From Bacteroidota bacterium (GTDB lineage Bacteria > Bacteroidota > Bacteroidia > NS11-12g > UBA955), in contig JAGXTF010000089.1 in the NCBI GenBank assembly GCA_018333525.1, positions 1-64,000 on the forward strand: a stretch of DNA of 64,000 bases. The letters are read 5' to 3'. Within the stretch, counting starts at the first letter, position 1; each line of letters opens with the position of its first letter. Under the pieces are notes generated by a model. That model did no database searches. It saw nothing but the letters and a program-made list of their open reading frames with translations, and was not told where the DNA came from. The translations under genes and the position numbers were made by a program. Positions 19,668 through 50,583 of the stretch are shown here, in pieces.

Positions 19668-19886
19668 GTGATGAATTGCTTCGGGGTGTTGAAAGGCACC
19701 TAATTTTTATAGAAAGGGAACTATATGCTAGTATTTCAATTATTTGGTCATAAAATTCCGGGGTACCGGAAGCATGACCGTGACGTGATTTTTCACCTCT
19801 TGGATAATGGTGGAAATTTGGGTAAACTTGCCAACGAAAACGCCCGACGAAATTTGGGTTTTAACCGACGAAAGAAAAAATCATTT

Positions 19887-23670: not shown

Positions 23671-26600
23671 ATGAAACGGCTTATTTTAATATTATCCATG
23701 GCGGGTACAACGGGATTGGCAATGGCCAGACCAATTGTAAACATCAACAGCAAAGCGGGAAAGGTATACGACAACCGGGCTGTGATGTTTGCAAACACTT
23801 GTGAACCCGCAACACAAAGCGCCGATTTGGATATAAACAACGTCAGAACCAAGATCCTAAACGGTGGAGACATGTGGTGGGATTTGAACAATCCCAAGTA
23901 TGAAATTCCCAAAGTAACCGACCCTAATGCAGTGCGAAAACATTCTCTGTTTTCCGGTGCAATTTGGATTGGTGGCAAAGACAATGGAGGAAACCTGAAA
24001 CTTGCGGCAATGACTTACCGCCAGAGGGGTTCAGATTTCTGGCCCGGTCCACTGGAAACCACAACTTCCGCAACCGATCCAACACGTTGTAAAGCTTACG
24101 ATAAAATGTGGAAGATTACCCGCGATGAATTGGAGGATTTCGAAAATAGCAATTATTCCAATATATCTGCAGGTATCCGCGATTGGCCGGGCCCGGACCG
24201 CACAATCAAAAGCGGTTCAGAAGCCGATGCCATGGCTCCATATAAAGAAATTTCAGATCCAACTACTTACAACCCAAATATAGGGGAACACCCGGTTTTG
24301 GATGATAGCAGACCGGCGAGCGAAAATGGAGTAGACAAACAGCCGGATATGTTTATCTGGTGGGTATATAATGATAAAGGAAATATCCACTCTGAAACAC
24401 AGGGCCAGCCCATTGGTGTGGAATGTCAAACTACTGCTTTTGCTTATTCTACGAATGATGAGGTGAATAACATGACCTTTTATACTACCAAAATCATCAA
24501 CCGTGGATTTACAACCTTAAGTGATTGTTACATGGGAGAATGGGTAGATGCCGATTTGGGTAACTACGCGGATGATTATGTTGGTTGCGATGTAGGTAGA
24601 AGTTTAGGCTATTGCTACAACGGTGATGATAATGATGAAGGGGTACTAGGATATGGCCTGAATCCACCATCTGTTGGTGTGGACTATTTTGAAGGACCTA
24701 CCAATGACAGTGGAAACCAAATGGGCCTCAGTCACTTCATGTATTACAACAATGACAATGACCCGGACAGAGGTAACCCGGAAGTAGCGAATGAATTTTA
24801 TAACCTGTTACAGGGCAAATGGCTTCGTGGACAAAATGTAACTTATGGTGGCAATGGTTTTGGTGGTAGCAGACCTTGTAAATATATGTTTCCTGCCAAC
24901 ACTGACCCGGAATTCCCCAATGAGTGCTGGGATGAAAAAAGTGCAGGCAATCCTGCGGCCGACAGAAGGTTTTTGCAATCTACAGGACCATTCAAATTGT
25001 TACCGGGTACTGTTCAGAAAATTACTATAGGTGTTGTTTGGGCCAGAACCACCAGTGGTGGTGCAGGTGCCCCTTGTTTGGGAACCGGCTCACTCGGTCT
25101 TTTACAGTTGGCCAGCGATAAGGCACAAACCTTGTTTAACAATAAATTTAAAATTCTGGATGGACCAAATGCACCAGATGTTGAAATTCAGGAACTCGAG
25201 CAACAGCTGGTATTGAAAATGCTGAATACCCAAAGCGATAAAGTTGAGAATTATACCGAACAATATAAGAATGCCAATAACGAAATTAAGACCTACAAAT
25301 TTGAAGGATATCTGGTGTACCAATTGAAAGATGGTACCGTAAATACAGGTGATTTGGAAAATGTAGATAAAGCGCGTTTGCTGTATCAGTGTGATTTATA
25401 TAATAACCGTGACCAGATCATCAACAGAGTATTTGATCCAAAATTAAATGCGTTGATTCCGGTAGAAAAAGTAGATGGGGCAAATAAAGGATTACAACAT
25501 AGTCTGAATATTACCAGAGACCTTTTTGCAACTACCGGAAATACAGATCTGGTAAACTTCAAAACCTATTACTATATGGTGTTGTCTTATTCCATAATTT
25601 CTGATGATCCACAACAAACAGATCCGAACCAGTTTCTGGCAGGACGCAGAAATATAAAAGTTTATAAAGGCATCCCACATAAAACAGAGCCCGAGCAAAA
25701 TGGTACCATTCTGAATTCAGGATATGGCAGCGGTCCAATGCTGAAACGTATTGAAGGACGCGGAAATGGTGGTAATGTGCTCGAGTTTTCTGATGAAACA
25801 ATTAAAGAGATTTTAGCCAACAATTGGTCTGCCAATCCGGTATATCTGGGTGGACAAGGTCCGGTTAAGGTTAAAGTAGTGGATCCACTAAAAGTTCCAA
25901 AAGCTGAATTTGAGCTATATGTGCGTGAAAATAAAGCCTCAGTTGTAAAAGGATTAAAAGATTCCATGACCGGAAACGCGAATTGGGTTCTGGTAAATAA
26001 AACTACCGGAGATTCTATATTCTCTGATGCCATCATTCGCAACCAATTTGAATCGGTTCAGGGTGTAAGAGCTGCATCCAATCCGACCAAGCAAACTTTG
26101 GCAGATTGGGGCTTGAGCATTGAATGGACCCAGGTAACCAATCCGGGAGAAAATACGCTTGGTGAGCCAACCAATGGTTTGGTTAGTTGGTCCGTAGAGT
26201 GGGAAGACAATGGCAAACAATGGTTAACGGCTATTGCGGATAACAATTCCGTTGCAACAGCAACCGCACCACAAAAATGGCCAAACTGGATTCGTTCGGG
26301 TCAAAATGGAAGAAATTCGACATTTGATCCATATATACATAGCTTTTTTAAAGTTTCACCAAATGATACCGCCTTCGATCCAACCGGTGCCTATGAAGGG
26401 ATTTGGAATGGAAGAATTGGGCCATATGCACTTGCTGCAAGAGCAGAATATAGTGCCGCCACTGGGAATAATACTTATGGTCCGGCGTGGGTAACCAGTG
26501 GATTACAGGACAATCCGCTCAGTGAGTTAGCCAGCATTGAACTTGTAATTACTCCGGACAAGAGCAAATGGTCCAGATGCCCAATTTTTGAAGCAGCGGA

Positions 26601-27561
26601 TCATGAGGTAAAAGGGCTTACAGAAGGGGGTATGGATAAGTTAAATATGCGATGGGGCAAGTCTAAGGATAAAAATGGCGCCGATCAAGGAGGACAAGGC
26701 TTAGGTTATTTCCCTGGATATGCCATCAATAAGGAAACAGGTGAGCGTTTGGTAATTGCATTTAGTGAGGATTCTTATCTGGAGGGTGAAAATGGACGTG
26801 ATATGCTTTGGAACCCAACCAGTACCGTCTACAACGACAATGGAAATTACCCTGTAATTGGCGGCAAACACTTCATTTACATTTTTGGAACCGGCTACAG
26901 CATGGTAACCCGTGCTGTGAAAGGTGAAAGATATTTGGGCGAAGATGATGCCAATTTCCAGAGATTTAGAGATGCTTGTTTGCCAGGTGCAGCTGGAGGA
27001 ATTGCAAATTTATTTGAGAAAAGAAGACTGTTTTCACAATGCATGTGGGTTATTCCTACCTATATGGTAGCAGGCTATAACATGAATGATGGAGTACCAC
27101 CGACTTGGGTAAAATTCAATATCAACGTGAAAAAGGCTTATACCACCTATTCAACCGGATCCGCAAGGAATAATGACCGCCCTTTCTACACTTTTAGCAC
27201 CAATGAAATTGCTCCATCTGTAAGCAACGAAAACGGCAAGAAAAGTCTGGATCTGGTGAATGTTGTTCCAAACCCATACCGCGCATACAGCCAGTATGAA
27301 ACAAGTCCGATTGACAGCAGGGTAAAAATTACCAACCTGCCACCGGAGTGCACCGTTAGCATTTTCGATATGGGTGGTAACCTCATCCGTCGCATTAACA
27401 AGGCAGATGAAAATACTTTTGTGGATTGGGATTTGAAAAACAACAACAACGTTCCAATTTCGAGTGGCCTGTATCTCATACACGTCAAATCCAAAGACCT
27501 GGGTGAGAAAATAATTCGCTGGTATGGCATTATGCACAGCATTGACCTGGACACTTATTGA
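23671..27561 (+). CDS. Large T9SS-exported surface protein with type A sorting domain
   Basis: A 1296-residue exported protein. The signal peptide MKRLILILSMAGTTGLAMA precedes a mature chain beginning RPIVN. The long body contains FANTCEP, FSGAIWIGG, and an aspartate-rich GYCYNGDDNDEGVLGYGLN segment, all without a recognised catalytic domain. The last 90 residues form a type A T9SS sorting domain: VVPNPYRAYSQYE, VSIFDMGGNLIRRI, VPISSGLYLIHVKS. The protein is therefore expected to cross the outer membrane through the type IX system and be displayed or released. It lies between a TonB-receptor-like gene and a PorV-like gene with gaps of 19 and 24 bp, suggesting the three form a dedicated surface complex. 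Function otherwise unknown. Confidence 0.8.
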   Translation: MKRLILILSMAGTTGLAMARPIVNINSKAGKVYDNRAVMFANTCEPATQSADLDINNVRTKILNGGDMWWDLNNPKYEIPKVTDPNAVRKHSLFSGAIWIGGKDNGGNLKLAAMTYRQRGSDFWPGPLETTTSATDPTRCKAYDKMWKITRDELEDFENSNYSNISAGIRDWPGPDRTIKSGSEADAMAPYKEISDPTTYNPNIGEHPVLDDSRPASENGVDKQPDMFIWWVYNDKGNIHSETQGQPIGVECQTTAFAYSTNDEVNNMTFYTTKIINRGFTTLSDCYMGEWVDADLGNYADDYVGCDVGRSLGYCYNGDDNDEGVLGYGLNPPSVGVDYFEGPTNDSGNQMGLSHFMYYNNDNDPDRGNPEVANEFYNLLQGKWLRGQNVTYGGNGFGGSRPCKYMFPANTDPEFPNECWDEKSAGNPAADRRFLQSTGPFKLLPGTVQKITIGVVWARTTSGGAGAPCLGTGSLGLLQLASDKAQTLFNNKFKILDGPNAPDVEIQELEQQLVLKMLNTQSDKVENYTEQYKNANNEIKTYKFEGYLVYQLKDGTVNTGDLENVDKARLLYQCDLYNNRDQIINRVFDPKLNALIPVEKVDGANKGLQHSLNITRDLFATTGNTDLVNFKTYYYMVLSYSIISDDPQQTDPNQFLAGRRNIKVYKGIPHKTEPEQNGTILNSGYGSGPMLKRIEGRGNGGNVLEFSDETIKEILANNWSANPVYLGGQGPVKVKVVDPLKVPKAEFELYVRENKASVVKGLKDSMTGNANWVLVNKTTGDSIFSDAIIRNQFESVQGVRAASNPTKQTLADWGLSIEWTQVTNPGENTLGEPTNGLVSWSVEWEDNGKQWLTAIADNNSVATATAPQKWPNWIRSGQNGRNSTFDPYIHSFFKVSPNDTAFDPTGAYEGIWNGRIGPYALAARAEYSAATGNNTYGPAWVTSGLQDNPLSELASIELVITPDKSKWSRCPIFEAADHEVKGLTEGGMDKLNMRWGKSKDKNGADQGGQGLGYFPGYAINKETGERLVIAFSEDSYLEGENGRDMLWNPTSTVYNDNGNYPVIGGKHFIYIFGTGYSMVTRAVKGERYLGEDDANFQRFRDACLPGAAGGIANLFEKRRLFSQCMWVIPTYMVAGYNMNDGVPPTWVKFNINVKKAYTTYSTGSARNNDRPFYTFSTNEIAPSVSNENGKKSLDLVNVVPNPYRAYSQYETSPIDSRVKITNLPPECTVSIFDMGGNLIRRINKADENTFVDWDLKNNNNVPISSGLYLIHVKSKDLGEKIIRWYGIMHSIDLDTY

Positions 27562-27585: not shown

Positions 27586-28680
27586 GTGAAGAACAATAAA
27601 TTAGCGTTGGCCATTTCCATTATTGGAATAAGTATTCCGGCTTTTGCAGGCAATCCTGAAAGGCAAGGGCAGGCGGGAGCATCCCAGCTTACTCTTAACG
27701 GATATGCAAGAAGCAGTGGTTTGGGTTGGACTTATGGCGGGGGAGTTACCGGGGTGGAAGCATCCTTTTTGAACCCTGCCGGAATGGACAGAAACAAACA
27801 AAAAACAGAACTTGCATTTAGCCGCACACAATGGCTTGTTGGCTCAGGAATAGGAATTAACACATTTGGCTTTACACAGAAGCTTGGGGATGATGGAGAA
27901 GGCGGAACCCTTGGCGTTTCAGTAATGCAATTTGGTATTAAGCCTATAATGATTACCACTGAGCAGAATCCGGACGGAGGCATTGGTACTTACCGCGTAA
28001 GTATGACCAATATTGGTATGGGTTATTCCAAAAGCTTTTCCAGAAATATTTCGGCAGGTATAATGATGCGTGCAGTATCTGAAGGTATTCCGGATGCCAA
28101 GGCATTGGGAGTAAGTCTGGATGCAGGTGTACAGTATGCAACTACCATTCGCCCTACTGCCAGTGGATTGAAGAAAAACGATTTGAAATTTGGTATCAGT
28201 GTAAAGAACATAGGCCCAGATATGCGATTTAAAGGGGATGGCTTGTCCTATAAAGTGCAGTTGGACAATCTCACCAAAACCATGGAAGCGAAAACCCAGG
28301 CTGTTAAATTGCCTGCGTTGCTGAACATTGCTTGTTCCTATGATCTAAAACTGGATAAGGGTGATGAGTTGTATAATAACAGACTAACACTTGGGTTTGC
28401 ATTTACCAACCATTCTTTTTATGCCAATCAAACTACTTATTCCCTGGAATATGGATATAAGGATTATTTCAGCCTGAGAGCTGGATTTGTTTATTCCGCA
28501 GGAATATTTGATGAGTCAACCAGAACGTCGGCCTACACCGGACCTATGGCCGGACTCAGTTACGACTGGCACGCGAAGGACGGAAATACCATTAGTTTGG
28601 ACTATTCATACAGGGCCAGTAACCCATTTTCAGGCACCCATTCATTTGGTCTGAGAATCGGAATTGGAAGTATGGAATAA
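27586..28680 (+). CDS. PorV/PorQ-family outer membrane barrel
   Basis: A 364-residue FadL-like outer-membrane barrel of the PorV/PorQ group. The gene starts with GTG (27586), giving signal peptide MKNNKLALAISIIG...PAFAG. The mature N-terminus GQAGASQLTLNGYAR followed by VEASFLNPAGM is the hallmark of PorV/PorQ, whose members shuttle T9SS cargo from translocon to the attachment (sortase) complex. The gene is the last of the receptor-cargo-PorV-like run, before the hairpin at 28711-28746. Because it sits with one cargo gene instead of the T9SS core genes, it may be a paralogue dedicated to that cargo; this is inference. Confidence 0.8.
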   Translation: MKNNKLALAISIIGISIPAFAGNPERQGQAGASQLTLNGYARSSGLGWTYGGGVTGVEASFLNPAGMDRNKQKTELAFSRTQWLVGSGIGINTFGFTQKLGDDGEGGTLGVSVMQFGIKPIMITTEQNPDGGIGTYRVSMTNIGMGYSKSFSRNISAGIMMRAVSEGIPDAKALGVSLDAGVQYATTIRPTASGLKKNDLKFGISVKNIGPDMRFKGDGLSYKVQLDNLTKTMEAKTQAVKLPALLNIACSYDLKLDKGDELYNNRLTLGFAFTNHSFYANQTTYSLEYGYKDYFSLRAGFVYSAGIFDESTRTSAYTGPMAGLSYDWHAKDGNTISLDYSYRASNPFSGTHSFGLRIGIGSME

Positions 28681-31570: not shown

Positions 31571-31642
31571 ATTCATCACACAGGCAACCGCTGGGAAGTA
31601 AAAATCTTCTACTAATCACAGCGTTACCCATGGAAAAGCTGC

Positions 31643-32191
31643 ATGGCTATAAAAGCGGATATCACAGAACAGAATTTAGTCAGGCGTTGTCTGGCTGGCG
31701 AAACCAAGAGTCAGCGGGAACTTTACGACAAATATTCCTCTGTAATCTTCGCAATATGCATGCGTTATTCCAGGAACAGTGAAAATGCGAGAGACCTGCT
31801 TCAGGAATCTTTTATTAAAGTGTTCGATGGGTTGAAATATTTTCGATTTGAAGGCTCCTTTGAGGGTTGGATGAAAAGGGTTGCGGTGAATACCTGCCTG
31901 GATTTCAACAAAAAACTCAAGGGAGAACCTTACAATGAAGAACTGGAGGAATATCTACAAGTAGGGCAGGGGGAGAGTATTACCGCTACCCTGCATGCCG
32001 GAGACCTTTTTAAGTTGCTACAGAAATTGCCAGCCGGATACAGAACGGTTTTCAACCTCTATGCAATTGAAGGGTACAGCCACCAGGAAATTGCAACGGC
32101 CCTCGGAATAACCGAGAGTACCAGCAAAACGCAATTGTTTAAAGCGAGAAAAATGTTGCAAGCCATGCTTGCAAGAACTGAAGATACATAA
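31643..32191 (+). CDS. ECF-type RNA polymerase sigma factor
   Basis: A 182-residue sigma factor with only regions 2 and 4. Region 2 (about residues 20-88) has YSSVIFAICMRYSRN, ARDLLQESFIKVF for core binding, and FRFEGSFEGWMKRVAVN for -10 recognition and melting. Region 4 (about 125-172) has LPAGYRTVFNLYAIEG and the helix-turn-helix SHQEIATALGITESTS. The gene is followed 2 bp later by a membrane-anchored protein with PKD and CHU_C modules in the position normally held by the anti-sigma factor, and then by a giant CHU_C protein. Resembles the ECF group of Bacteroidota that includes SigP of Porphyromonas gingivalis, though orthology is not claimed. Confidence 0.9.
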   Translation: MAIKADITEQNLVRRCLAGETKSQRELYDKYSSVIFAICMRYSRNSENARDLLQESFIKVFDGLKYFRFEGSFEGWMKRVAVNTCLDFNKKLKGEPYNEELEEYLQVGQGESITATLHAGDLFKLLQKLPAGYRTVFNLYAIEGYSHQEIATALGITESTSKTQLFKARKMLQAMLARTEDT

Positions 32192-32193
32192 AA

Positions 32194-33255
32194 ATGGAAG
32201 ATTTTAAAGATCTGGACAGCCTGTTTAAGGATACCCTCGGAAATGCGAAGGTGAATCCTCCGGCCGGAGTTTGGGAGGGTATTGCCTCTTCTATTCCTGC
32301 TGCAACTGCTGCTGCCCAAACTTCAATTTGGCTGGTTGCCGTTAAATGGGTTGCTGGTATTGTGCTTGCCGGAGGTATTGCTGTTGTAGCTTATACCAGC
32401 TTGAATAAGGAAAATACCCAGGCTGAAAATAAAGATAAGGCTACCCAACAACAAAATGCACCAGCAGAAACCAATGTAAATACTAACACCACCGGTATAA
32501 ACCAGGATAGCGACAAAGCGGATGTAAATGGTCCTCTATCTCATAGATCTGGTCAAAATGAAAGAGCAACTGCAAATGAAGAAAATCCAATTCAGTTAGA
32601 AATAAATAACCCTCACCAGCCTTTGGAAGTAGAAGATCCGAATATGGGCAACAGCGCTCCACCTCTGGCAGATTTGCGTCCGAAAAAACAAGCTGTAAAA
32701 CCCGGAAATGCAAGTAATAATGAAGTTGCAAATTGCGTGCACAGCATAGAAATTTCAGTACAAAAAATATCCAATACCGCGTATTCCTTTACTGCAATGC
32801 GCCAAAATGGACTTGTTGACTGGAATTTTGGTGATGGAAATTTAGAAAATGGCGCCATTACCAGTCATGAATATTCTCCAACCCCCGGTGTGTATTTGGT
32901 AAAAGCTTTTAGCCGGAGCCCACTGGGATGCAGAGATTCCGCTGTAGTAAAAATTACAATAAGCGGCCCAAAACCCGAATTGAAAAATGTATTTACTCCC
33001 AACGGCGATGGGCTAAATGATGTATATTATGTAGAGGCAAAAAATCTGATCTATTACAACCTGATCATATCCGATTTTCAAAATCGCCAGGTATTTGTAA
33101 GCAACAACCAGACTATTGCCTGGGATGGAACCTACACCAATATCCCTTGTCCGGAAGGATGGTACCAGGTAACTTTAGCCTATAAATATCCGGGAGATTC
33201 AAATACCCAGATTGTGAAAGAAAAATTATTGCTTACCCGCGATAAAAAAGATTGA
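32194..33255 (+). CDS. Single-pass membrane protein with periplasmic PKD and CHU_C domains; candidate anti-sigma factor
   Basis: A 353-residue protein with no signal peptide. Residues 1-44 are a short cytoplasmic segment (MEDFKDLDSLFKDTLGN... PPAGVWEGI) like the N-terminal parts of Bacteroidota regulators next to ECF sigma genes. A single membrane helix covers 45-68. Then comes a long Gln/Asn-rich linker (about 70-180), a PKD-like domain (about 185-255, DWNFGDGN... YSPTPGVYLVKAF), and a CHU_C module (about 260-353, NVFTPNGDGLNDVYY, IAWDGTY, CPEGWYQV). It starts 2 bp after the sigma gene, so it is translationally coupled. CHU_C usually marks type IX export, yet here it is tethered to the inner membrane; a sensor of secretion status that restrains the sigma factor is a plausible inference. 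Confidence 0.75.
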   Translation: MEDFKDLDSLFKDTLGNAKVNPPAGVWEGIASSIPAATAAAQTSIWLVAVKWVAGIVLAGGIAVVAYTSLNKENTQAENKDKATQQQNAPAETNVNTNTTGINQDSDKADVNGPLSHRSGQNERATANEENPIQLEINNPHQPLEVEDPNMGNSAPPLADLRPKKQAVKPGNASNNEVANCVHSIEISVQKISNTAYSFTAMRQNGLVDWNFGDGNLENGAITSHEYSPTPGVYLVKAFSRSPLGCRDSAVVKITISGPKPELKNVFTPNGDGLNDVYYVEAKNLIYYNLIISDFQNRQVFVSNNQTIAWDGTYTNIPCPEGWYQVTLAYKYPGDSNTQIVKEKLLLTRDKKD

Positions 33256-33439
33256 TAAAAATGACGAACGGTAGGAATTGGAATGTAAATAGAGGCAACT
33301 GCAGCGATGAGGCTATCGTCTGCTATGCAAACGGTGGTATTGTATTAAAATAAAAGAACAAGAAAAAAGAATGAACATGCATAAGGGATTTAGCTCCGAA
33401 TCGAATAAATTTGAAACCTCTCCATTGAAAAAAAGGAAC

Positions 33440-36400
33440 ATGAAAAAATATAAAGTATTGCTGCGAAGCTTTTTCGCCGTTTTCCTCCTCGGCATTTTGC
33501 CTGTGCAGAATGCCCTCTCACAATGCCAGGTGACATACTCCGGCTCATTGTGCGTGGGGATTCCTATCACGTTTACAGGTGAGAATTCCGGAAGTACCCA
33601 CGATTATGATTTCAACGGGGAAAACACAAGCACTGGTCAAAAAATTGTAGCATATGCATTTAACACTGCCGGTAACAAGGTTATTACCTATGTAACCACT
33701 CTTCCAAGCGGAAGTAAATGTACATCTACATTGAATCTGGTGGTGAAAGAAAGCCCAAAAATCAGTTTGAAACTGGTAAGTGCATATGAACAGTGTTTTG
33801 AAAATAACCTGTTCTGCTTTACCGATAGCAGTGTAAGTCCAATCGGTGCAAAGATTGCAAAGGTTACCATAAACGTAAGTGATGGACAACTTTTTGAATA
33901 TATCAATCCCAAAACAGCGCCCCGCACCATTTGTTTCAGTATTAAAGATGAACGCGGTGGTGCATTTGATGTGTATTACGAAATAGAAGATGAAAATGGA
34001 TGTATTTCCAAACAGAATTTCACTTCCATAGTAAAAGTAAGGGAAAAAATAGGAGCCAGATTTAACCGAACCAGCCCTAAAAACCCGGATTGTGACTCAG
34101 TAACTGTATTGGTTACCAACGTAAGCCGTATCAGTCAAAGTCAGGTAAAGAGTATTTGGTGGTATTGGGGCGATGGTTCAGTTACTACCGATTGGGGACC
34201 GAATCTGAAAAAAGTATTTTATTCTTCAGCTCCTACCTGGGCTAAAAATGGCGGGGTGTTCAATTCCAAAATGGTTATTGAAACTGTTGACGGATGTAAA
34301 GACTCCTTCTCATTTGCCGCTGTTGCAACCGTATTTAAATCCACTGCTAAAATTTTAGCAGACCCGGATTCTACTTGTATATCCAATCCTAAGATTGATT
34401 TTACCGTGGATACGATACCTGTCGGAGCCACAGGGTTTCTCTGGAATTTCGGAGATCCCCCGACAGGTCCTCAGAACTTCAATAACAGAACATGGTCTCC
34501 TACCCACAATTTCTCCGGCCTCGGTCCTTACAGAATTGTGCTGACTTATTCCCATCCTATATGCGGTAACAAGTCTATCTCGGATACCATTTTAATTCTT
34601 GGCCCATTGTCTACCATCGAAAAGCCACTGAACCGCCTTGCTGAATTTGAGGTGTTCCAGTGTCCTAAAGATGTAATGGATTCGGTGCATTTCAAGAATT
34701 TTAGTACGTTTTATCACAATGATAATTACATGATCAATGATGATAGTTCGTATTATGATACCAATGACGTATGGATACATGTATTTGCCGGACAAACTTC
34801 TGTGAAGCCGTCTGGTTTTATAGATCCGCTCTTCAGAGAACGCGAGTGCGCAGTTCGTCTTTGGGATTTTGGAGATTCTTATTCTTCACAATGTACCACA
34901 GACAGAAAAGAAAATGTAAATGTGAATGTGAATTGCAATTATTCACATGACAGTTTGCCGGTGCATTATTATAAATCATGGGATCTGGTAATGCTGTCAG
35001 ATTTCAAGAGCGCATCCATGGATGATGCAATCTTTATTAACAGCACCAAATTATGTAAAAAGCTAAATGTATGGCCTTCTGATTCCTTTTATATAGTAGA
35101 AGATTCTTTGATTTACATTCCAAGATCATCTGCAGATAGTGCCAATGCATTGAATTATCCGAACGTAACCACCAAGTTTTATCTCAAGGAAAAATATGTT
35201 TACGGACCTGGTGAAAGATATATAGAAGATTGGCTGGATCTGGAACTTTTGGCAGGTGATTCACTCTATGTTGGCCCTGAAGGCGGCCCATACGTTTTGA
35301 AAACAGGCCCACAGACCCTATCTGTTTCGCCAAAACAAATTGTAAAACTGAAAAGTGCAACTGATACCATGCGTATCCTGTTCACCATTCATATGCGGAA
35401 AGATACTTTGCCTGTCCCTTTCTATGATATTCGCTTTAATAAAGGAGAAAGACCAAAGATTTTAAGCAGGTTCCAGAAAATACCTCCTGGTATTGTCAAT
35501 TATGATTACATCATCAACTACCAGCGTTTCAGAGAGTTGTATTATGCAAGAATTCCACGTTGCCAAAATGTGAGATTGAAACATTGGGATACATGCCATG
35601 CCCCTTATTGTGAGCATGAGGCAATCAAACAACTTACCATGATGCATGCAAATGCAGGTGGCGTTGGAAGTGGTCTGATTAAAGATGCGATAGAATGTTT
35701 GGGAGCCAAAAACCCACAATATGGTGTAACCTTTATTTTGAGTGATTTAAAACCAGGATGTACCTTTTCTGACGTTCAGATTAATTATGATACATTCTGT
35801 GATCCAAAAGCATGGGTTCCATTGGTTGGTGGTATAATCCCGGGCGGAAGGCCTTTGGGCTTGCCCTATCTGGGATACCAATTACAGGGTAACCCACCAA
35901 ATCGTTTTTCAACCCAGTATACTGCATCTCAGGTTTGCGGACCAAATGGCTGCGTAACCGTAGGTATTATAGTGGGCAATGGTGTTAGCAAATCCGGCAC
36001 CAAGCCGCTTTGTGCAGATACCCAGTACTATGATAAGTTCGCTTGTTTCCCATTGATCGACCCAAGCTTTGAAGTGCTTACCCCATTACCAAATGCTTAC
36101 CAAAACCGCAAAATGTGTAAAGGTGAGCCTATTGTGGTAAGACCCATATTGTCTAATAATACCAATACCCGCGATTTGAAATCCCTGCGTTGGGAACTTG
36201 CAACCGGAAACGCCAGCCCGTATTTCTCCAGAAACTGGAGCCGCTGGATTCAGGAAGATTATTTCAGTGGTCAATATCTGAAAGATTCAGGTACCACTAA
36301 GATTTATAACTATATGGTGCAAACCCGTGGCGGTGAAAATGTGTATCAGGTTCCATGTACCGATATATGGAATGACGGTAAAACCTATACCACCGGTATA

Positions 36401-38755
36401 AGAGATACTATCGTTACTGCCATTATTTCCAAATGGGATACTGCAGCAGATGTTTCACTGGTTTGGGATAATATTAAAGTAAAACTGGAAGCAAGAGGAT
36501 TTGATCCATTTGCCTTGAGCCCAACTCAAATTGCCCAAATGATTTGGAACAATGTGGGTATTATTGGCAACATACCTTCAGGAGCAAAAGGTTGTATTGA
36601 TACTACCGGTTTCGGTAAGTTTATTCGATTCTACCTGCGCCCTGATCCTAATTTCACCAAAATCATCCACGAAAGAGATACCAATATTGTGCCTTTGGAT
36701 TCATTCTTCTTGAAAGGCAAATATGTAAGGTCTTATACCTTTACCCCGCAGTGGAATGGCTACCATCTGGTAAGTATTTCCATGACCTCGGCCAATGGCA
36801 AGTGTGATGAATTTGCAGCTTATCCTGTAATCGTAGGCTTTGCGGCCTTCCTGGAAGTTCCTGATTCGATTGTTTGTGCCGATCAGGGAACTTCTCTGAA
36901 AGCACTTACCGATTTCCGCTACTTCCATCCGGATCCAATCAACTTCGGAACCTGGGATCCATATGATTATTGGAGAGATCCTGTTCGTCAGCAAAAAACC
37001 ACTTTCGGAGATACAAATAGTGAGAGATTCACCAAATGGGATTGGGACAAACGCGATGACGATATAACCAAGCCCCAAACTATTTTTGGAGGTGGCATTT
37101 ATGGTGCCTCCGGTGTAGGCACTCCATGGAAAGACCTCGGCGGACCATCTAAAATAAATGGTGGCATCTATTATGAGAATGACTCAGGGGTATATACCAT
37201 GAGAATGTATACCGGCGACAGCACAGGTTGTATGGATACCACGACCAAACGTTTGTTCATCACCCGTCTGGATGTTGGGTTCCGATTGAATGTAAACACT
37301 CCTGCATGTAATTCTACCATTGAGTTCTTTGACTCCAGTTATCTCTACGATCCATGCAATTGGGCTATGAGGAACTGCCAGGGCAATAAACCCATGACCT
37401 GCGATTTCGTTCGTGAATGGTATATCAACTGGGGTGATGGCAAAGACAACTTGTACAAACGCAATGCTGCAAGTGAAGAAGGAATTCCAAGCCGCGTTGG
37501 TCATACGTATACCCGCAACGGCTGGTTCCTGGTACAGTACATTCAAAAAACCGATCAGGGTTGTTATGATACTATGGAGCGCTGGATTAAGATTCCGGGC
37601 CCAAGACCGAAATTTGAATACACTGACAAAGCCGGGTACGATGTTACCATTTGCGAAGGCGATTCTCTGAGATTTACCAACCTGTCTGATTCTGCATCAA
37701 CAAGCGCAGACTGGACCTGGTTCTTTGGAGATACCAAAATCAAAAACGTAAAAGATACTTTCCTTTGGCATACATACGAAAAACCTGGTGTGTTCCATGT
37801 TACCCTACAGGAATATGACAGCTTAATCGTTCCACCGAATATTTACAGATATTGCCCCGCTACCTTCCCAGATACCCCAACCCAGCGCGCATTTATTGTG
37901 ACTGTGTTGAAACGGGATACGGTTCGGGGTTCTGTAGATAAACTGGCTATTTGCCCGGGTGATTCCATCACATTTACAGATAATAGTGATGATAGTCTGA
38001 CTTCCTATAAATGGAGTTATAAAAACCTGAGCGGTGGATTTGAAGACAGTATTACTGTTGCTACCAAGCAATTCACGAAGGCCTTTAGTGTGCCCGGCAC
38101 CTATCAGGTATTCCATACCGCTGACTACAATCCAAACCACGCAAGGCCATGGTGTCCAAGTGATCCGGTTCCGTTGACTTTCCTGGTGGATAGCGTAATA
38201 GCAGATTTTGACATAGACAGCAGTAATGTTCCTGAATTCTGTTTCACCAGAACAGACATTAACGGGGTGCAGTTCCGCTGGGGCTTTAACCACAGAAACG
38301 ATATCACTCAGGGTCCTTTGAAAGACTTCCTGGAAGAGAGCAAGTCTCCGGATAAGAAAGTTTGTACTTCCTTCGATAGCTCCGGTGTGTATTGGGTTTG
38401 TCTGATTGCTAAAAACAGCACCGGTTGTGAAGACACCATTTGCAAACCTGTGGAAGTGAACTTGTTTATCTTCCTTGCAAACGTATTTACTCCAGGTTCT
38501 TTGGATGGTAAAAACGATACTTATCGTGTGCCAATTCAGGGACAGGATGTATTTGAGCTGAAGATATTCAACCGTTGGGGTGAAAGAGTATTCCAGAGCG
38601 AAGATCCGCGCAAGCAGTGGGATGGCTCTGTGAACAACAAAGGCGCTGAATGTCCTGCCGGTACTTATTTCTATCAGTTGAAGTACCGCTTCAAAGGAAA
38701 AGAAAAGGTAGAAGTGATCTCCGGTTCTATCAATTTGATCCGCGATACACAGTAA
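33440..38755 (+). CDS. Giant secreted PKD-repeat protein with CHU_C sorting module
   Basis: A 1771-residue exported surface protein. The start at 33440 (MKKYKVLLRSFF) gives a signal peptide ending NALSQ; the 23 codons before it in frame are not signal-like. The chain is cysteine-rich and carries several PKD-like beta-sandwiches recognised by W-x-F/W-G-D turns: WWYWGDGS, FLWNFGDPP, RLWDFGDSY, EWYINWGDGK and DWTWFFGDT, each followed by a YxxxG.Y strand. The last 100 residues are a CHU_C module (NVFTPGSLDGKNDTY, IFNRWGERVF, KQWDGSVNN). Such proteins are adhesins or gliding-surface components. It is third in line after the ECF sigma and membrane CHU_C genes (185-bp gap without a visible terminator), and ends at a strong terminator. 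Confidence 0.85.
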   Translation: MKKYKVLLRSFFAVFLLGILPVQNALSQCQVTYSGSLCVGIPITFTGENSGSTHDYDFNGENTSTGQKIVAYAFNTAGNKVITYVTTLPSGSKCTSTLNLVVKESPKISLKLVSAYEQCFENNLFCFTDSSVSPIGAKIAKVTINVSDGQLFEYINPKTAPRTICFSIKDERGGAFDVYYEIEDENGCISKQNFTSIVKVREKIGARFNRTSPKNPDCDSVTVLVTNVSRISQSQVKSIWWYWGDGSVTTDWGPNLKKVFYSSAPTWAKNGGVFNSKMVIETVDGCKDSFSFAAVATVFKSTAKILADPDSTCISNPKIDFTVDTIPVGATGFLWNFGDPPTGPQNFNNRTWSPTHNFSGLGPYRIVLTYSHPICGNKSISDTILILGPLSTIEKPLNRLAEFEVFQCPKDVMDSVHFKNFSTFYHNDNYMINDDSSYYDTNDVWIHVFAGQTSVKPSGFIDPLFRERECAVRLWDFGDSYSSQCTTDRKENVNVNVNCNYSHDSLPVHYYKSWDLVMLSDFKSASMDDAIFINSTKLCKKLNVWPSDSFYIVEDSLIYIPRSSADSANALNYPNVTTKFYLKEKYVYGPGERYIEDWLDLELLAGDSLYVGPEGGPYVLKTGPQTLSVSPKQIVKLKSATDTMRILFTIHMRKDTLPVPFYDIRFNKGERPKILSRFQKIPPGIVNYDYIINYQRFRELYYARIPRCQNVRLKHWDTCHAPYCEHEAIKQLTMMHANAGGVGSGLIKDAIECLGAKNPQYGVTFILSDLKPGCTFSDVQINYDTFCDPKAWVPLVGGIIPGGRPLGLPYLGYQLQGNPPNRFSTQYTASQVCGPNGCVTVGIIVGNGVSKSGTKPLCADTQYYDKFACFPLIDPSFEVLTPLPNAYQNRKMCKGEPIVVRPILSNNTNTRDLKSLRWELATGNASPYFSRNWSRWIQEDYFSGQYLKDSGTTKIYNYMVQTRGGENVYQVPCTDIWNDGKTYTTGIRDTIVTAIISKWDTAADVSLVWDNIKVKLEARGFDPFALSPTQIAQMIWNNVGIIGNIPSGAKGCIDTTGFGKFIRFYLRPDPNFTKIIHERDTNIVPLDSFFLKGKYVRSYTFTPQWNGYHLVSISMTSANGKCDEFAAYPVIVGFAAFLEVPDSIVCADQGTSLKALTDFRYFHPDPINFGTWDPYDYWRDPVRQQKTTFGDTNSERFTKWDWDKRDDDITKPQTIFGGGIYGASGVGTPWKDLGGPSKINGGIYYENDSGVYTMRMYTGDSTGCMDTTTKRLFITRLDVGFRLNVNTPACNSTIEFFDSSYLYDPCNWAMRNCQGNKPMTCDFVREWYINWGDGKDNLYKRNAASEEGIPSRVGHTYTRNGWFLVQYIQKTDQGCYDTMERWIKIPGPRPKFEYTDKAGYDVTICEGDSLRFTNLSDSASTSADWTWFFGDTKIKNVKDTFLWHTYEKPGVFHVTLQEYDSLIVPPNIYRYCPATFPDTPTQRAFIVTVLKRDTVRGSVDKLAICPGDSITFTDNSDDSLTSYKWSYKNLSGGFEDSITVATKQFTKAFSVPGTYQVFHTADYNPNHARPWCPSDPVPLTFLVDSVIADFDIDSSNVPEFCFTRTDINGVQFRWGFNHRNDITQGPLKDFLEESKSPDKKVCTSFDSSGVYWVCLIAKNSTGCEDTICKPVEVNLFIFLANVFTPGSLDGKNDTYRVPIQGQDVFELKIFNRWGERVFQSEDPRKQWDGSVNNKGAECPAGTYFYQLKYRFKGKEKVEVISGSINLIRDTQ

Positions 38756-40181: not shown

Positions 40182-43100
40182 TTATTCTTTCACCAGCATC
40201 TTCGTTTGTACGGCTCTGCCGGCACGCACTTCCACCTCATAGACGCCAGGAACAAAATGAGTGCAATTCAAAGTTATTAAATCTTTTCCGGTAAATATTA
40301 TTCTACCAACAACATCGGAAACGCGCACTTCATAATGGCTGTATTGTGCTGCTATCTGAAGGCTCACATAGTCTTTGGCAGGGTTTGGATACATGGAAAA
40401 TAATTCCAAATTCGGATCGTATAATCCCAATATCTTATTTACAGTAACTACATAATTTTTAATGGCAGTTCCACTTTGTGATGTAACCTTATAGGAAAGT
40501 GGTGTACTGAAATTTTGTACAGAAACATCGCTGAATTGTTTCACTCCAACTACTGTTGTAATTGCGGAATCCGAGATGGTAAAACTGGCAACAAGACTGG
40601 TCAGGTCAGCGTTTTCGGGAACATCTACCTTAATCGTTCCACCACTGGTATCTCTGTTAAAAATTCCAATTGCATTGGGAGATTTGAATTGAAATGTGAG
40701 CATTTCTGCAGCGGTATTAGGCAAAATATTTACAAATATTTTATATGTTTTTTTGTGATTCCCATCCTGTGAAGTAACAATACCAATTAATGTATCGGAA
40801 TAATTATTTGCTGTAATTCCACTGTTTTGTTTATTTCCGGAAATTTCAAAAGTTGCGCTGTCACTGAGTGTAAAAGCAGCCACCAACGCTGTATTGTTGC
40901 TGCCAAATGGTATCGATGCCGTTACACTTCCATGTAAACTGTCAATAGAAATTACATTTCCTGGAATTACCGGATTTACTAAATTCCAACTGAGTAAATC
41001 ACAAGCAGTGTTTTTTGCTGTAAGCACTTTTACCATATAATCTTTAAAATAATTGCTGTCTTCTGCAATAACTTTATATGGTACAGGATATCTGAAATCG
41101 TATTTGCTGATTCCGTTTGTATCTGGTTGGTAATATACCTGAAGACGTGCATTGGGGCTAATGGTGGTCCACGAAGAGCGATTTTGAATGGAAGTTCCAT
41201 AAGGCACTGTAACTTCCACCAAACCTGATTTTATTATACCGGTAACATCCGGATTTTTAAATGCAAAACTGAACAATTCGCAAGATGTATCCGGTAATTC
41301 TACTACACGCACCAGATATTTTTTCCGATACAAACCATCGGGATTTTTAATGATATAATAAACATTATTGCTAAAATTATTCACGGTAATTCCGCTTTGC
41401 TGGGCAATATTTCCGACAAATGTTCCGGTGCTGTCCGTAACGCCAAATTGCGCTACCAGACTGTCTTTGTTCGTTCCGTGGTACACGTAACAGGTGATAG
41501 TTCCACCGCTGTCGTTTTGTACCAGAGAATCGTATTTGCTATGACCAGGAAATGTGAATGAAGTAATAGCCATTTCCAGTAAGGTGGAATCCACAAAAGA
41601 AAAACAGGAATTTCCAACAGGATCTGTAAATGCACCACCCGCCAGATTTACAAATATTTTTCCAGGTTTATTTGGTGTAATTTCCAATTCATACCAAAGT
41701 GGATTTCGTTTTACCAATCCGGTAATTCTGCCATTGGTGAATTTGAGTTTCCCAGTATCAAATGCCGGACAATATTCGCTCAATTTTAATATGCCCGTAA
41801 AATGTCCGTAAACCTTAGGTTTGGGCATGGTCCACAAAATAGAAGGTTTTTTATTGTCGATATAAATCGCGTAATCTTCTGCCTGTCCGTAGCTCAAGGT
41901 CCCACATGCTGAAGTAATGGGGCTGAAATCGCTCACTACACGCATTCGCAACCAGGTATTTACAACCGGTGGGGAAGTGAGAATTTTGACGCTGGTATTT
42001 CTTCTGCCTTTTCCCTGTGCAAAAGTCGCTGCAAGTTCGTTGGCGTCGGCAAAATCGCCATCGTTGTTGTAGTCAATAAAAATGGCAGCATATTCATTGT
42101 TTAATGTGCCGTTTGTAACCCAGGCGGTGTAAGTGTTTCCCGCCTTTACCTGCATGCCTTCAGAGCAACTAAAATCTTCCAGATTTGGATTTTGCCAGAG
42201 CGAAAAATTGCTGCTTTTGTCGATATTTCCCATTTCAAAACGGTGAATTCCTATCAGGTAATTACCAAACGTTCCCGTATTTACAGTGCAGGTTGCAGCT
42301 ATTCCTAATTCGGAATATTGCACCGTTTTTGTGCTGCTGGAAGTGCCAAAATTATTATTAATATTTAACGTAATTATTAATGAACCGGATTTGGTAAGCA
42401 TAATTTCCGGTTGCCTGCTCAAAGAGTCTGTTCCGTTGATATATTTATAGGAATCATAAGGTAAAATATTCCAAACTCTGGTGTATTTACCACCGCTCGA
42501 AATATCGTTGAGAATATAATTTTTGGGGCATTTTATGGTGGAAGGGCAAATGCTGAAATCTGCAACAGGAGCCTTGGTTTGGTATTGGTACAAACTGGTT
42601 TGCCAGATGCCACGTCCGTAAGTGCTGATTCGAATGCAACTTTTAGGTGTACCATCGTTAAAAATATCCATGTCTGTTATTCTTGCGATTGCAGGTAAAT
42701 TTTTTGAAATACTGGTCCAGTTTGCCAGATTCCTGTTTTTATAATATACCCCAAAATTGGTGGCCACATAAATGCTGCTGTCGAATGCACGATCATCCAC
42801 GGCAAAACCTACGATATAATTTGCAGGTAAATTTTTGCTGAAATTCCACCAGGTTTTACCTTTGTCGCTGCTCTTGTAAATCTTAGAGCCAATGGTAATA
42901 TAAACGACATTGCTGTCTCTCGAATGTGTAATGATTTGTTGGATATTTCCGGCAGGTTTTGTTAAAGAATTAAATACGGGTTTGCTGCTATTTACAAAAT
43001 CCACTCGATATAATATTCCATTATTTCTCGCCCAATACAGTATATTCATATTGGACTTGCTTTGGGCCATTGCCGTAGTAGTTGCTGTGCCGTAATGGAT

Positions 43101-44588
43101 CAAAGAATCGCTCAGTTGGTTCCAGGTGGGAGAGGTGGCTCTAAGGTTATTCGTGCGATATAAATTGTGATAACCCATATACATGATATTGGTATCTTTT
43201 CGGTGTAATTCATACACAGAATTGTTTTGTCCGTTTATACCACGGCTTCCAAAAGTCTGCAGGTTGTATTGATTTCCACCACCCTGATAATATTGGTAAT
43301 TGCTGTCCTGATAATCAAATAAAAAATCACCACCGTAATCACCACCTCGAATGGTATAAAACGTTCCGTCTTTGTAATAATTTAAACCGTTATCCTGCAA
43401 GCCTCCCAGCGCCTTTTCCCGGTTCAGGGAGCTTTGTCCCATGCGATAAAATTCGGAGGCAGACAGGCCGTCAGAAATGGTTTTCCAGGTATTTCCGGTA
43501 TCTGTACTTCGGTCTATTCCACCATCGTGTGCGATATATAATTTCTTTGAATTATTTGGAGAAAAAATAAAATGGTGTTTATCGGCATGCACACCATAAG
43601 CCCATGGAGATTTTAATCGCCAGGTTACACCGGAATCGCGCGATTTCCAGATACAAATGGCGCCTACATAAACCGAAGCAGGATCTTTGGGATCCACAGT
43701 AACTGTTAGGTTATATGAGCCCTGGCCATTGTTGCTGCTGCCATCGCTGCTATAACCAAGGATTTGTGGTTGGTTGCTCTGTAATTTCCAGTTTAAACCT
43801 GCATTTGTGCTTTTAAAAACACCACCAAAATAAGTTTTATTTCCCCAGCTGTTTCCCCGCCATGCAACGGTATAAACCAAATTGGTATCAGCCGGTGTTA
43901 CTCCAATATAAACTCCATAAAAAGTATCTGCAGGACTTACATTTATTTGCATCCAACTCTCCCCGAAATTTTTACTGTAATAAAAATATTTATGCGATGT
44001 TGCATAAAGGCTAAATCCGCTTCCCGGCTTGATTACAAGATCGTTGAATTCATCAGAAACAGTGCTTTTTTTGGTCCAGGTATTTCCGCCATTCGTTGTT
44101 TTATAAATACCGCCGTTGGTGGTTGCTACAATAATATTGGTATCTGTTGGATGCATGGCCATCTGCACTACCAGCACATTTCCCATTCCGCTATTTTTCT
44201 GCGTCCAGGTTTTTCCGCCATCCATACTTTTCCAAACACCCATTCCGCCACCATAATAATTGGCATCACCCGTACCCAGATAAATGGTATTTGGATTTTT
44301 ATAATTGATGAGTCCTGAAGCACAAGCTGTATTCGGCAAACCATCTGTTAGGGCTTTCCAGGTTTGGCCTTCATTGCTGCTTTTCCATAACCCGCCGGAG
44401 GCAGAAACCGCAAATAGAATATTACTGTCTGTCGGGTGAAAAACAAGGTGGCTCACACGCCCCATTCCAGTGGTTTGCACACTCGGATTTTCGGGAAATT
44501 TCACCATTCCCAATTGGCTCCACTGGTCGTTTTGCGACAGCAATGATGTGGTGAGAATAAAACATAAAATGAATAAAATATTTTTCAT
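40182..44588 (-). CDS. Sortilin/BNR-repeat protein with GEVED domain, cadherin-like repeats and T9SS type A tail
   Basis: A 1468-residue exported protein. The start at 44588 gives signal peptide MKNILFILCFILTTSLLSQ; a 35-codon upstream extension overlaps the lipoprotein gene and is rejected. Residues 25-690 form a large propeller built of BNR/sortilin repeats with repeated S-x-D/N-x-G-x-T-W turns (GGLWKSSNEGQTW, GVWKSMDGGKTW). A GEVED domain follows (about 800-930, FIDYNNDGDF... GQAEDYAIYI). Four cadherin-like repeats (about 1000-1390) precede the type A sorting tail (LFSMYPNPAKDYVSL, VVGRIIF, FVPGVYEVEV). The domains suggest a surface adhesin or carbohydrate/peptide-binding protein. Its start overlaps the stop of the upstream lipoprotein by 4 bp. 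Confidence 0.85.
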   Translation of the reverse strand: MKNILFILCFILTTSLLSQNDQWSQLGMVKFPENPSVQTTGMGRVSHLVFHPTDSNILFAVSASGGLWKSSNEGQTWKALTDGLPNTACASGLINYKNPNTIYLGTGDANYYGGGMGVWKSMDGGKTWTQKNSGMGNVLVVQMAMHPTDTNIIVATTNGGIYKTTNGGNTWTKKSTVSDEFNDLVIKPGSGFSLYATSHKYFYYSKNFGESWMQINVSPADTFYGVYIGVTPADTNLVYTVAWRGNSWGNKTYFGGVFKSTNAGLNWKLQSNQPQILGYSSDGSSNNGQGSYNLTVTVDPKDPASVYVGAICIWKSRDSGVTWRLKSPWAYGVHADKHHFIFSPNNSKKLYIAHDGGIDRSTDTGNTWKTISDGLSASEFYRMGQSSLNREKALGGLQDNGLNYYKDGTFYTIRGGDYGGDFLFDYQDSNYQYYQGGGNQYNLQTFGSRGINGQNNSVYELHRKDTNIMYMGYHNLYRTNNLRATSPTWNQLSDSLIHYGTATTTAMAQSKSNMNILYWARNNGILYRVDFVNSSKPVFNSLTKPAGNIQQIITHSRDSNVVYITIGSKIYKSSDKGKTWWNFSKNLPANYIVGFAVDDRAFDSSIYVATNFGVYYKNRNLANWTSISKNLPAIARITDMDIFNDGTPKSCIRISTYGRGIWQTSLYQYQTKAPVADFSICPSTIKCPKNYILNDISSGGKYTRVWNILPYDSYKYINGTDSLSRQPEIMLTKSGSLIITLNINNNFGTSSSTKTVQYSELGIAATCTVNTGTFGNYLIGIHRFEMGNIDKSSNFSLWQNPNLEDFSCSEGMQVKAGNTYTAWVTNGTLNNEYAAIFIDYNNDGDFADANELAATFAQGKGRRNTSVKILTSPPVVNTWLRMRVVSDFSPITSACGTLSYGQAEDYAIYIDNKKPSILWTMPKPKVYGHFTGILKLSEYCPAFDTGKLKFTNGRITGLVKRNPLWYELEITPNKPGKIFVNLAGGAFTDPVGNSCFSFVDSTLLEMAITSFTFPGHSKYDSLVQNDSGGTITCYVYHGTNKDSLVAQFGVTDSTGTFVGNIAQQSGITVNNFSNNVYYIIKNPDGLYRKKYLVRVVELPDTSCELFSFAFKNPDVTGIIKSGLVEVTVPYGTSIQNRSSWTTISPNARLQVYYQPDTNGISKYDFRYPVPYKVIAEDSNYFKDYMVKVLTAKNTACDLLSWNLVNPVIPGNVISIDSLHGSVTASIPFGSNNTALVAAFTLSDSATFEISGNKQNSGITANNYSDTLIGIVTSQDGNHKKTYKIFVNILPNTAAEMLTFQFKSPNAIGIFNRDTSGGTIKVDVPENADLTSLVASFTISDSAITTVVGVKQFSDVSVQNFSTPLSYKVTSQSGTAIKNYVVTVNKILGLYDPNLELFSMYPNPAKDYVSLQIAAQYSHYEVRVSDVVGRIIFTGKDLITLNCTHFVPGVYEVEVRAGRAVQTKMLVKE

Positions 44589-45010
44589 CTGGAAGTGGTG
44601 TCCGAGTGATCCTTTTTCCACTGTTGAATGATATCGTATTCGGTCATCACCATTCCATTTTCTTTTATGCGATATTGGTTTTTTTGTTTCCAATTTAAAA
44701 ATTTTTTGTAATCGTAAACCTCATTCAAATTGCCGGAATTTTCTTCTTTTTTTTCGCGTTCAAAGATATTTTCACCTTCATTATCTTCATCGCGGATGGG
44801 GCGTTGTTTTCCCTTCCAATACAATTCAAAGGCAGAAACAGTAGCAGCGAATGGAACCAGGGTATCCGCCATCATGGTTTTCCAATATGCTGTTTGCATG
44901 GTGTCTTGTTGTCGTCTGGTGAATTCTTTGGCATTTCTTCGGGCCTGTATGTGGGAGCAAGCGTACAGACAGAAAACCACACCAAACAGCAAAAACACCC
45001 ACCGGTTCAT
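44585..45010 (-). CDS. Putative lipoprotein of 141 residues
   Basis: Begins with a lipoprotein signal MNRWVFLLFGVVFCLYAC; the lipobox LYAC gives C18 as the lipidated residue. The rest is charged and largely helical (RRNAKEFTRRQQDTMQTAYW), without a recognised domain. The stop overlaps the start of the sortilin-like T9SS gene by 4 bp (ATGA), so the two are translationally coupled, hinting that the lipoprotein assists or anchors that protein. A -7-like TAAATTTG lies 4 bases before its ATG. Confidence 0.75.
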   Translation of the reverse strand: MNRWVFLLFGVVFCLYACSHIQARRNAKEFTRRQQDTMQTAYWKTMMADTLVPFAATVSAFELYWKGKQRPIRDEDNEGENIFEREKKEENSGNLNEVYDYKKFLNWKQKNQYRIKENGMVMTEYDIIQQWKKDHSDTTSR

Positions 45011-50405: not shown

Positions 50406-50515
50406 GCTGTTGGTCGCCGCATGCTTCGCCAATGCAGCATGAGGACCAACAGTGTCAAGCCTGGTAGATCATCGTTGGTCCTCATGCCTTACCTGCGCAG
50501 CGCAAGGCGACCAAC
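50406..50515. repeat. 110-bp direct repeat, left copy
   Basis: Matches 54242-54351 over its full 110 bp with a small number of differences. Each copy holds two imperfect hairpins: GTTGGTC...GACCAAC, and a second with TCATGCCTT...AAGGCGACCAA. The two copies bracket the caspase gene. Related fragments (GCAGCGCAAGG, GACCAACG) also occur around 49735 and 50340, so this is a small dispersed repeat family. Confidence 0.85.
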
Positions 50516-50551
50516 GATATAAAAACCCAAAACAGGTTTCTCGAAACATTG

Positions 50552-50559
50552 TATATTTG
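50552..50559 (+). promoter_or_regulatory. Candidate -7 box for the caspase gene
   Basis: TATATTTG matches TAnnTTTG and lies 24 bases before the ATG at 50584, just right of the left 110-bp repeat. It is downstream of an in-frame ATG at 50452, arguing against that start. No -33 box is seen. Confidence 0.4.
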
Positions 50560-50583
50560 GTTGTTTTCCCTGCCTTTTATAAA

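Follow-up and report, generated by a model that had tools for sequence, protein, structure and literature searches.

Why does a module of the kind that tags proteins for export by the type IX secretion system (T9SS) sit on a membrane protein encoded beside a sigma factor? The question is raised by a 64,000-nucleotide stretch of contig JAGXTF010000089.1 from a Bacteroidota bacterium (GenBank assembly GCA_018333525.1), the whole of which is referred to here as the window. In it, a gene for an extracytoplasmic function (ECF) sigma factor is followed by a gene for a transmembrane (TM) protein that ends in a PKD-like domain and a CHU_C module (the TM-PKD-CHU_C or membrane protein), and then by a gene for a giant CHU_C surface protein. 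An earlier note on this DNA had read the three genes as one circuit: the membrane protein would be an anti-sigma factor whose CHU_C module samples T9SS capacity or competes with cargo, and the sigma factor would turn on surface cargo such as the giant. Gene order, coordinates, and domains are as that note gave them, the CHU_C module being clear and the PKD-like domain weak. The answer favored here, which we consider fairly likely, is a sigma/anti-sigma switch that activates itself and is dedicated to one giant T9SS surface protein, with a pseudo-C-terminal domain (pseudo-CTD) as trans-envelope sensor; we infer both the anti-sigma activity and the signal.

Gene content across genomes shows the sigma, TM-PKD-CHU_C, and giant genes to be a conserved cassette. 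The pair search that the earlier note had proposed was run in two steps: related genomes searched with the membrane protein yielded full-length relatives (20 loci examined), and a profile from 16 orthologs, run over the order and the class, added 40 further loci. Loci were picked by similarity to the membrane protein and not to the sigma factor, so the presence of a sigma gene is an independent finding. All 20 first-step loci have the order sigma, TM-PKD-CHU_C, giant, within contig limits. With the window counted, an ECF sigma gene lies immediately upstream of the TM-PKD-CHU_C gene in 60 of 61 candidate loci, and these 60 pairs represent 12 families of one class; the sole exception (L202) has merely a partial CHU_C match. 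The giant gene is directly 3' of the pair in 48 of the 60 loci (families f1, f2, f12, f40, f57, f59, and f62), 10 loci have the pair without an adjacent giant (families f6, f7, f17, f25, and f46), and in the remaining two (G031 and G277) a contig end or a longer gap follows the pair. Roughly 43 CHU_C/PKD matches are present in the window's own genome, and only that of the window membrane protein adjoins an ECF sigma gene. A database scan of genome contigs matched CHU_C/PKD proteins, with no sigma plus TM-CHU_C pair among them. Two of the carriers correspond to Bacteroidetes bacterium RI_134 (G040) and Flavobacteriales bacterium NORP157 (G240). The T9SS protein SprA was detected in all 18 carrier genomes tested. 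The three genes are conserved together, as the idea of a single circuit supposes.

The survey rules out a chance neighborhood. Within the window's family the usual flanks are greA-HIT-lgt-holB upstream and mnmE downstream; that the cassette is merely carried along by this conserved block is ruled out by G011, G002, and, in another family, G055, all of which have other neighbors and an intact triad. In two loci of family f17 (L187 and L197), the giant's place after the pair is taken by a further ECF sigma gene, a divergent one (SIG model 2e-34 and 3e-33). In Flavobacteriales of the Crocinitomicaceae (L071, L072, and L075), a more distant ECF sigma gene is followed directly by that of a 1078-amino-acid (aa) CHU_C protein with a signal peptide, without a TM-CHU_C partner.

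The same promoter type lies ahead of the sigma gene and, wherever the giant gene stands apart from the operon, ahead of that gene as well. The regions upstream of the sigma genes share (G/T)GCAACC-N16-C(A/T/G)TCT(A/T), with the N16 spacing in 53 of 60 loci and the -35 box mostly 45-60 nucleotides (nt) ahead of the start codon. A fixed-score scan found 50 sites before sigma genes in the 60 loci, versus 4 over all shuffled loci combined. More than 100 base pairs (bp) lie between the second gene and the giant gene in six loci (G000, G008, G184, G217, G145, and G277), the window among them, and the motif stands before the giant gene in all six; it is absent from this position in loci with gaps of 56-89 bp. 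Five of the six giant-side sites were scored by a model excluding their own family, and at these 0 of 300 shuffles reached the observed score; G277 was scored by the full model. The window's giant-side copy is the weakest of the six (leave-family-out score 14.0, 0 of 300 shuffles as high). Genomes of genus g11 (G010, G020, and G027) have an additional promoter copy before the second gene, and the promoter pattern alone recovered further sigma plus TM-CHU_C pairs (L292, L295, L298, and L299). The shared promoter indicates that the sigma factor very probably drives the giant gene, as had been proposed.

The companion proposal, a broader surface-cargo regulon, is weakened by the near-absence of such promoters elsewhere in this genome, the near-perfect form being essentially confined to the window locus. 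Only two exact matches occur in the whole genome, one at the sigma gene and the other within an open reading frame (ORF). With at most one mismatch there are 28 sites, versus 51 for the reversed control, and nearly all lie in ORFs, which rules out a large regulon at high promoter stringency. The only clearly intergenic, promoter-placed site among the 28 is the sigma promoter; another one-mismatch site outside long ORFs (L267, C104:7366-7394) has no ORF of at least 120 aa starting within about 260 nt. Elsewhere, in all six genomes examined of genus g16 (family f2; L278-L283), the promoter pattern lies 40-125 nt before the gene of a conserved protein of 360 aa that is secreted and, by eye, DUF1573-like (N-terminus ...TTLEVNKRFHDFGKIKEDGGKVKAIF...). 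A full-length TM-CHU_C protein was not found in these six genomes, and the 360-aa protein is possibly a different target of the same sigma clade.

The putative role of the membrane protein is approached through the relatives of its sigma factor. In anti-sigma factors, the Dma layout is a dual membrane-spanning one (PMC13088901). Of the roughly 23 ECF sigma genes that pass the cut-off in the window's genome, six are followed by a gene encoding a Dma layout (short N-terminus, one TM, low-complexity stretch, barrel-like C-terminus). These six were picked from the next-gene layout before sigma similarity was ranked, and they are exactly the six ECF sigma factors of the genome closest to the window sigma. 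In a tree, a single group (support 0.93), separate from the other 15 sigmas, unites the six Dma-linked sigmas with all 60 from the cassettes, which places the window sigma in a clade whose other members here adjoin Dma-type proteins. Boxes related to the cassette promoter stand upstream of two Dma-linked sigma genes (TGCAACC-N16-CGTCAC at L011; GCAACC, then CGACTA, at L013), so some cross-talk is possible.

The membrane protein itself looks like a Dma protein with its outer-membrane barrel swapped for PKD and CHU_C domains. About 46 hydrophilic residues precede a single hydrophobic segment that peaks at residue 47 (mean 2.26), and an N-terminal Sec signal peptide is not recognized. A TM-like segment (hydropathy at least 1.4) is present in 58 of 60 orthologs and a second segment in none; the net charge, about +1 on the N-side and about -1 on the C-side, is consistent with an N-in orientation. 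Residues D8, F11, and P23 are invariant among 16 orthologs, and the N-terminal motif ID-x-LF...PP-x-GVW is tandemly duplicated in four f40 genomes (L193, L196, L199, and L206), an arrangement that suggests a binding unit. The tether (residues 67-182) is called disordered from composition alone, and the alignment shows no conservation there. A PDB sequence search returned no meaningful relative. The Dma-like layout and the sigma clade make an anti-sigma role probable for the membrane protein, and to that degree the earlier assignment stands. Membership of the Dma family proper is ruled out, as the C-terminal barrel is absent.

The CHU_C module of the membrane protein (PF13585 1.3e-08; TIGR04131 36.9 bits, cut-off 35) is not, by its residues, the ordinary cargo tag. 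Among aligned CHU_C domains, the Trp of the NRWG signature occurs in 0 of 58 membrane proteins, 83% of 42 giants, and 96% of 67 others (this last set holds a few strays from the membrane-protein and giant groups, which could only blunt the contrast). Despite this loss, the membrane proteins retain the CHU_C framework (TPNGDG-x-ND and W-x-G). In the type B CTD of Flavobacterium johnsoniae SprB, mutating each of five conserved motifs abolished secretion (PMC12618676; motif letters not matched to NRWG), and type B CTDs bind PorP/SprF-type barrels (PMC9143113). With six PorP/SprF homologs in the window's genome and SprA in every carrier tested, a docking partner is available. Because the NRWG Trp is lost with the framework kept, and given these secretion and binding data, the module would be expected still to dock but to stay unexported.

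In the proposed switch, the N-terminal segment of the membrane protein would bind and restrain the sigma factor at the inner membrane. The single TM, the disordered tether of about 115 residues, and the PKD-CHU_C region would bridge the periplasm as far as the outer membrane, the way Dma proteins do, with a docking module as the end piece instead of a fused barrel. The kept framework, the lost Trp, and the inner-membrane tethering together lead to the reading of this end piece as a pseudo-CTD, one that would dock on an outer-membrane or T9SS partner instead of being secreted; most likely, although this is a guess, the partner is a PorP/SprF-type barrel or the giant itself. When docking is lost or changed, the sigma factor would be released and would amplify its own operon and the giant gene. 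Candidate signals are the giant or its shuttle, which would amount to feedback, the general T9SS state, and outer-membrane integrity. More tentatively, and at less than even chances, the cassette may exemplify a class of trans-envelope anti-sigma factors whose outer sensor is a disabled type B tag, coupling sigma release to the state of the T9SS shuttle or to one giant cargo in a cargo-specific feedback between export and transcription.

Several observations weigh against the switch as drawn. Counted by K and R alone, the TM flanks have 20 versus 20, so that the positive-inside rule is not obeyed, and the N-terminal segment has no anti-sigma match in Pfam. The cassette N-terminal profile matches one Dma-type paralog at 7e-05, a point in favor of the switch, but its similarity to the others is weak and near noise; the barrel nature of those paralogs is itself weakly backed, with Pfam support in two of the six, below cut-offs. 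A single-sequence AlphaFold2 model of the membrane protein is unusable (mean predicted local distance difference test score, 38), and no PorP/SprF gene adjoins the cassette.

The absence of a recognized anti-sigma domain (Pfam, NCBIfam) would also suit a type II membrane protein that has a structural role or is secreted and merely shares the operon, with the sigma factor controlled otherwise, for example at the level of its transcription or through a PorX-like partner, in the way that PorX activates Porphyromonas gingivalis SigP (PMC7712824). This is decidedly improbable given that the membrane-protein gene immediately follows the sigma gene in 60 loci, that its TM and N-in charge pattern fit an anti-sigma layout, that its sigma clade is common to Dma-type pairs, and that its short conserved N-terminal motif is duplicated in some genomes. 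If the membrane protein is an anti-sigma factor, the rivals concern what it reads. The module could compete with cargo for the translocon or shuttle and in that way monitor T9SS capacity in general, with the sigma factor controlling surface cargo broadly. The module is a genuine member of the type B CTD family, a T9SS is present in all carriers tested, the P. gingivalis CTD protein PorA acts upstream of PorXY-SigP (PMC7712824), and in Flavobacterium psychrophilum T9SS genes share an ECF-type promoter class with one ECF/anti-sigma pair (PMC9723704). Yet the Trp is missing in 58 of 58 membrane proteins, while any of the five type B motif mutations abolished secretion of the SprB fusion (PMC12618676), and other near-perfect promoters in the genome are intra-ORF, leaving no broad T9SS regulon at that stringency. 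As a signal, general T9SS capacity is a possibility that finds no support here, and this combined alternative is unlikely; the earlier suggestion that the module samples capacity or competes as an ordinary CHU_C domain loses ground with the systematic loss of the NRWG signature.

A cargo-specific feedback, in which the PKD-CHU_C region recognizes the giant or its shuttle during exit and reports the giant's export like a checkpoint, agrees with the position of the giant, the only partner that adjoins the pair consistently (48 of 60), and with its own promoter copy when separated from the operon. Against it stand the ten loci, in five families, that have the pair without an adjacent giant, so the pair can work without a giant next door; taken by itself, this feedback is somewhat unlikely. 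The sigma/anti-sigma switch with a pseudo-CTD sensor, set out above, keeps the giant as target and leaves the signal among several candidates. Coordinates of its parts are collected in the table.

Table. Positions of the cassette features in the window
Feature	Coordinates	Strand	Remarks
ECF-type sigma-gene promoter, GGCAACC-N16-CTTCTA	31583..31611	+	-35 box 60 nt 5' of start codon
ECF sigma factor, 182 aa	31643..32191	+	Pfam and NCBIfam; clade of the genome's Dma-linked ECFs
Putative trans-envelope anti-sigma factor, 353 aa	32194..33255	+	Starts 2 bp past sigma stop
Cytoplasmic N-terminus, residues 1-36, ID-x-LF...PP-x-GVW, proposed sigma-binding segment	32194..32301	+	
TM helix of membrane protein, residues ~47-66	32332..32391	+	Hydropathy peak
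Low-complexity periplasmic tether, residues 67-182, N/P/Q/E-rich, 15% hydrophobic	32392..32739	+	Composition
PKD-like domain of membrane protein, residues 208-254	32815..32955	+	PKD_4 5.1e-05, under gathering cut-off
CHU_C / type B CTD module without NRWG Trp, residues 263-331	32980..33186	+	PF13585, TIGR04131
Second promoter copy, GGCAACT-N16-CGTCTG, 5' of giant gene	33294..33322	+	Two mismatches
Giant PKD / CHU_C surface protein, 1771 aa	33440..38755	+	Signal peptide, NRWG-bearing type B CTD

The window sigma factor has both expected Pfam regions (Sigma70_r2 3.6e-13; Sigma70_r4_2 5.7e-17). By sequence, the giant has a standard type B CTD (CHU_C 8.4e-18; TIGR04131 41.6 bits; IFNRWGERVF present), its signal peptide is called by inspection, an alternative ORF start at 33371 would give 1794 aa, and similarity among orthologs spans the entire length. 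About 3 kb upstream of the cassette is a gene for a PorV/PorQ-family outer-membrane protein (27586-28680; NF033709, 117 bits, above cut-off), whose position is kept in most family members; two very large ORFs (19725-23651 and 23671-27561) lie 5' of it. Just past mnmE, the minus strand encodes a 1482-aa Sortilin-Vps10 / GEVED protein with a type A T9SS sorting domain (40182-44693), and further on (50452-54231) a 1259-aa protein combines two WD40 propeller regions with a caspase-like (Peptidase_C14) domain.

Coupling between type IX export and gene expression in Bacteroidota is known mainly from PorXY-SigP of P. gingivalis. The cassette offers 12 families, a defined promoter, a single obvious target, and a sensor module that can be mutated residue by residue. 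If the proposed switch is correct, the Dma principle of an envelope-spanning anti-sigma factor extends to a module with an exchangeable outer part, and what the sensor reads becomes directly testable.

A literature search, with most subscription papers outside its reach, found no description of a sigma / TM-CHU_C / giant cassette; parts of it have parallels in four known systems. Like the type B T9SS substrates SprB-SprF and PG1035-PorP (PMC9143113, PMC12618676), the cassette has C-terminal CHU_C / TIGR04131 modules, and its sequence makes the giant a standard member; the membrane protein differs from these substrates in its internal TM, in lacking a Sec signal peptide and the NRWG Trp, and in having no adjoining porP/sprF gene. 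In PorA-PorXY-SigP of P. gingivalis (PMC7712824, PMC4800418), a CTD-bearing protein also feeds into ECF sigma control, but PorA is a secreted surface protein that acts via a two-component system, whereas here the CTD-like module is on the sigma factor's inner-membrane neighbor. Promoter class SM6 of F. psychrophilum, with its ECF/anti-sigma pair (PMC9723704), similarly ties an ECF sigma factor to T9SS-related genes, although the SM6 regulon is T9SS machinery. The closest resemblance in layout is to Dma1/Das1 and Dma2/Das2 of Bacteroides thetaiotaomicron (PMC13088901), with a similar pair in Phocaeicola vulgatus (PMC9308784): here too an ECF sigma gene adjoins one whose product begins with a short cytoplasmic segment, crosses the membrane once, and continues into a long disordered tether, and the cassette sigma groups with the genome's Dma-linked ECFs (the Dma systems' own adjacent sigma is of the ECF21 family). 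In contrast to Dma proteins, which end in an outer-membrane beta-barrel, the cassette protein ends in PKD and CHU_C domains, and the cassette has a fixed third gene, that of the giant CHU_C protein, and a dedicated promoter. The cassette would work like a Dma system without one defining feature, the C-terminal barrel, and is a variant rather than a member.

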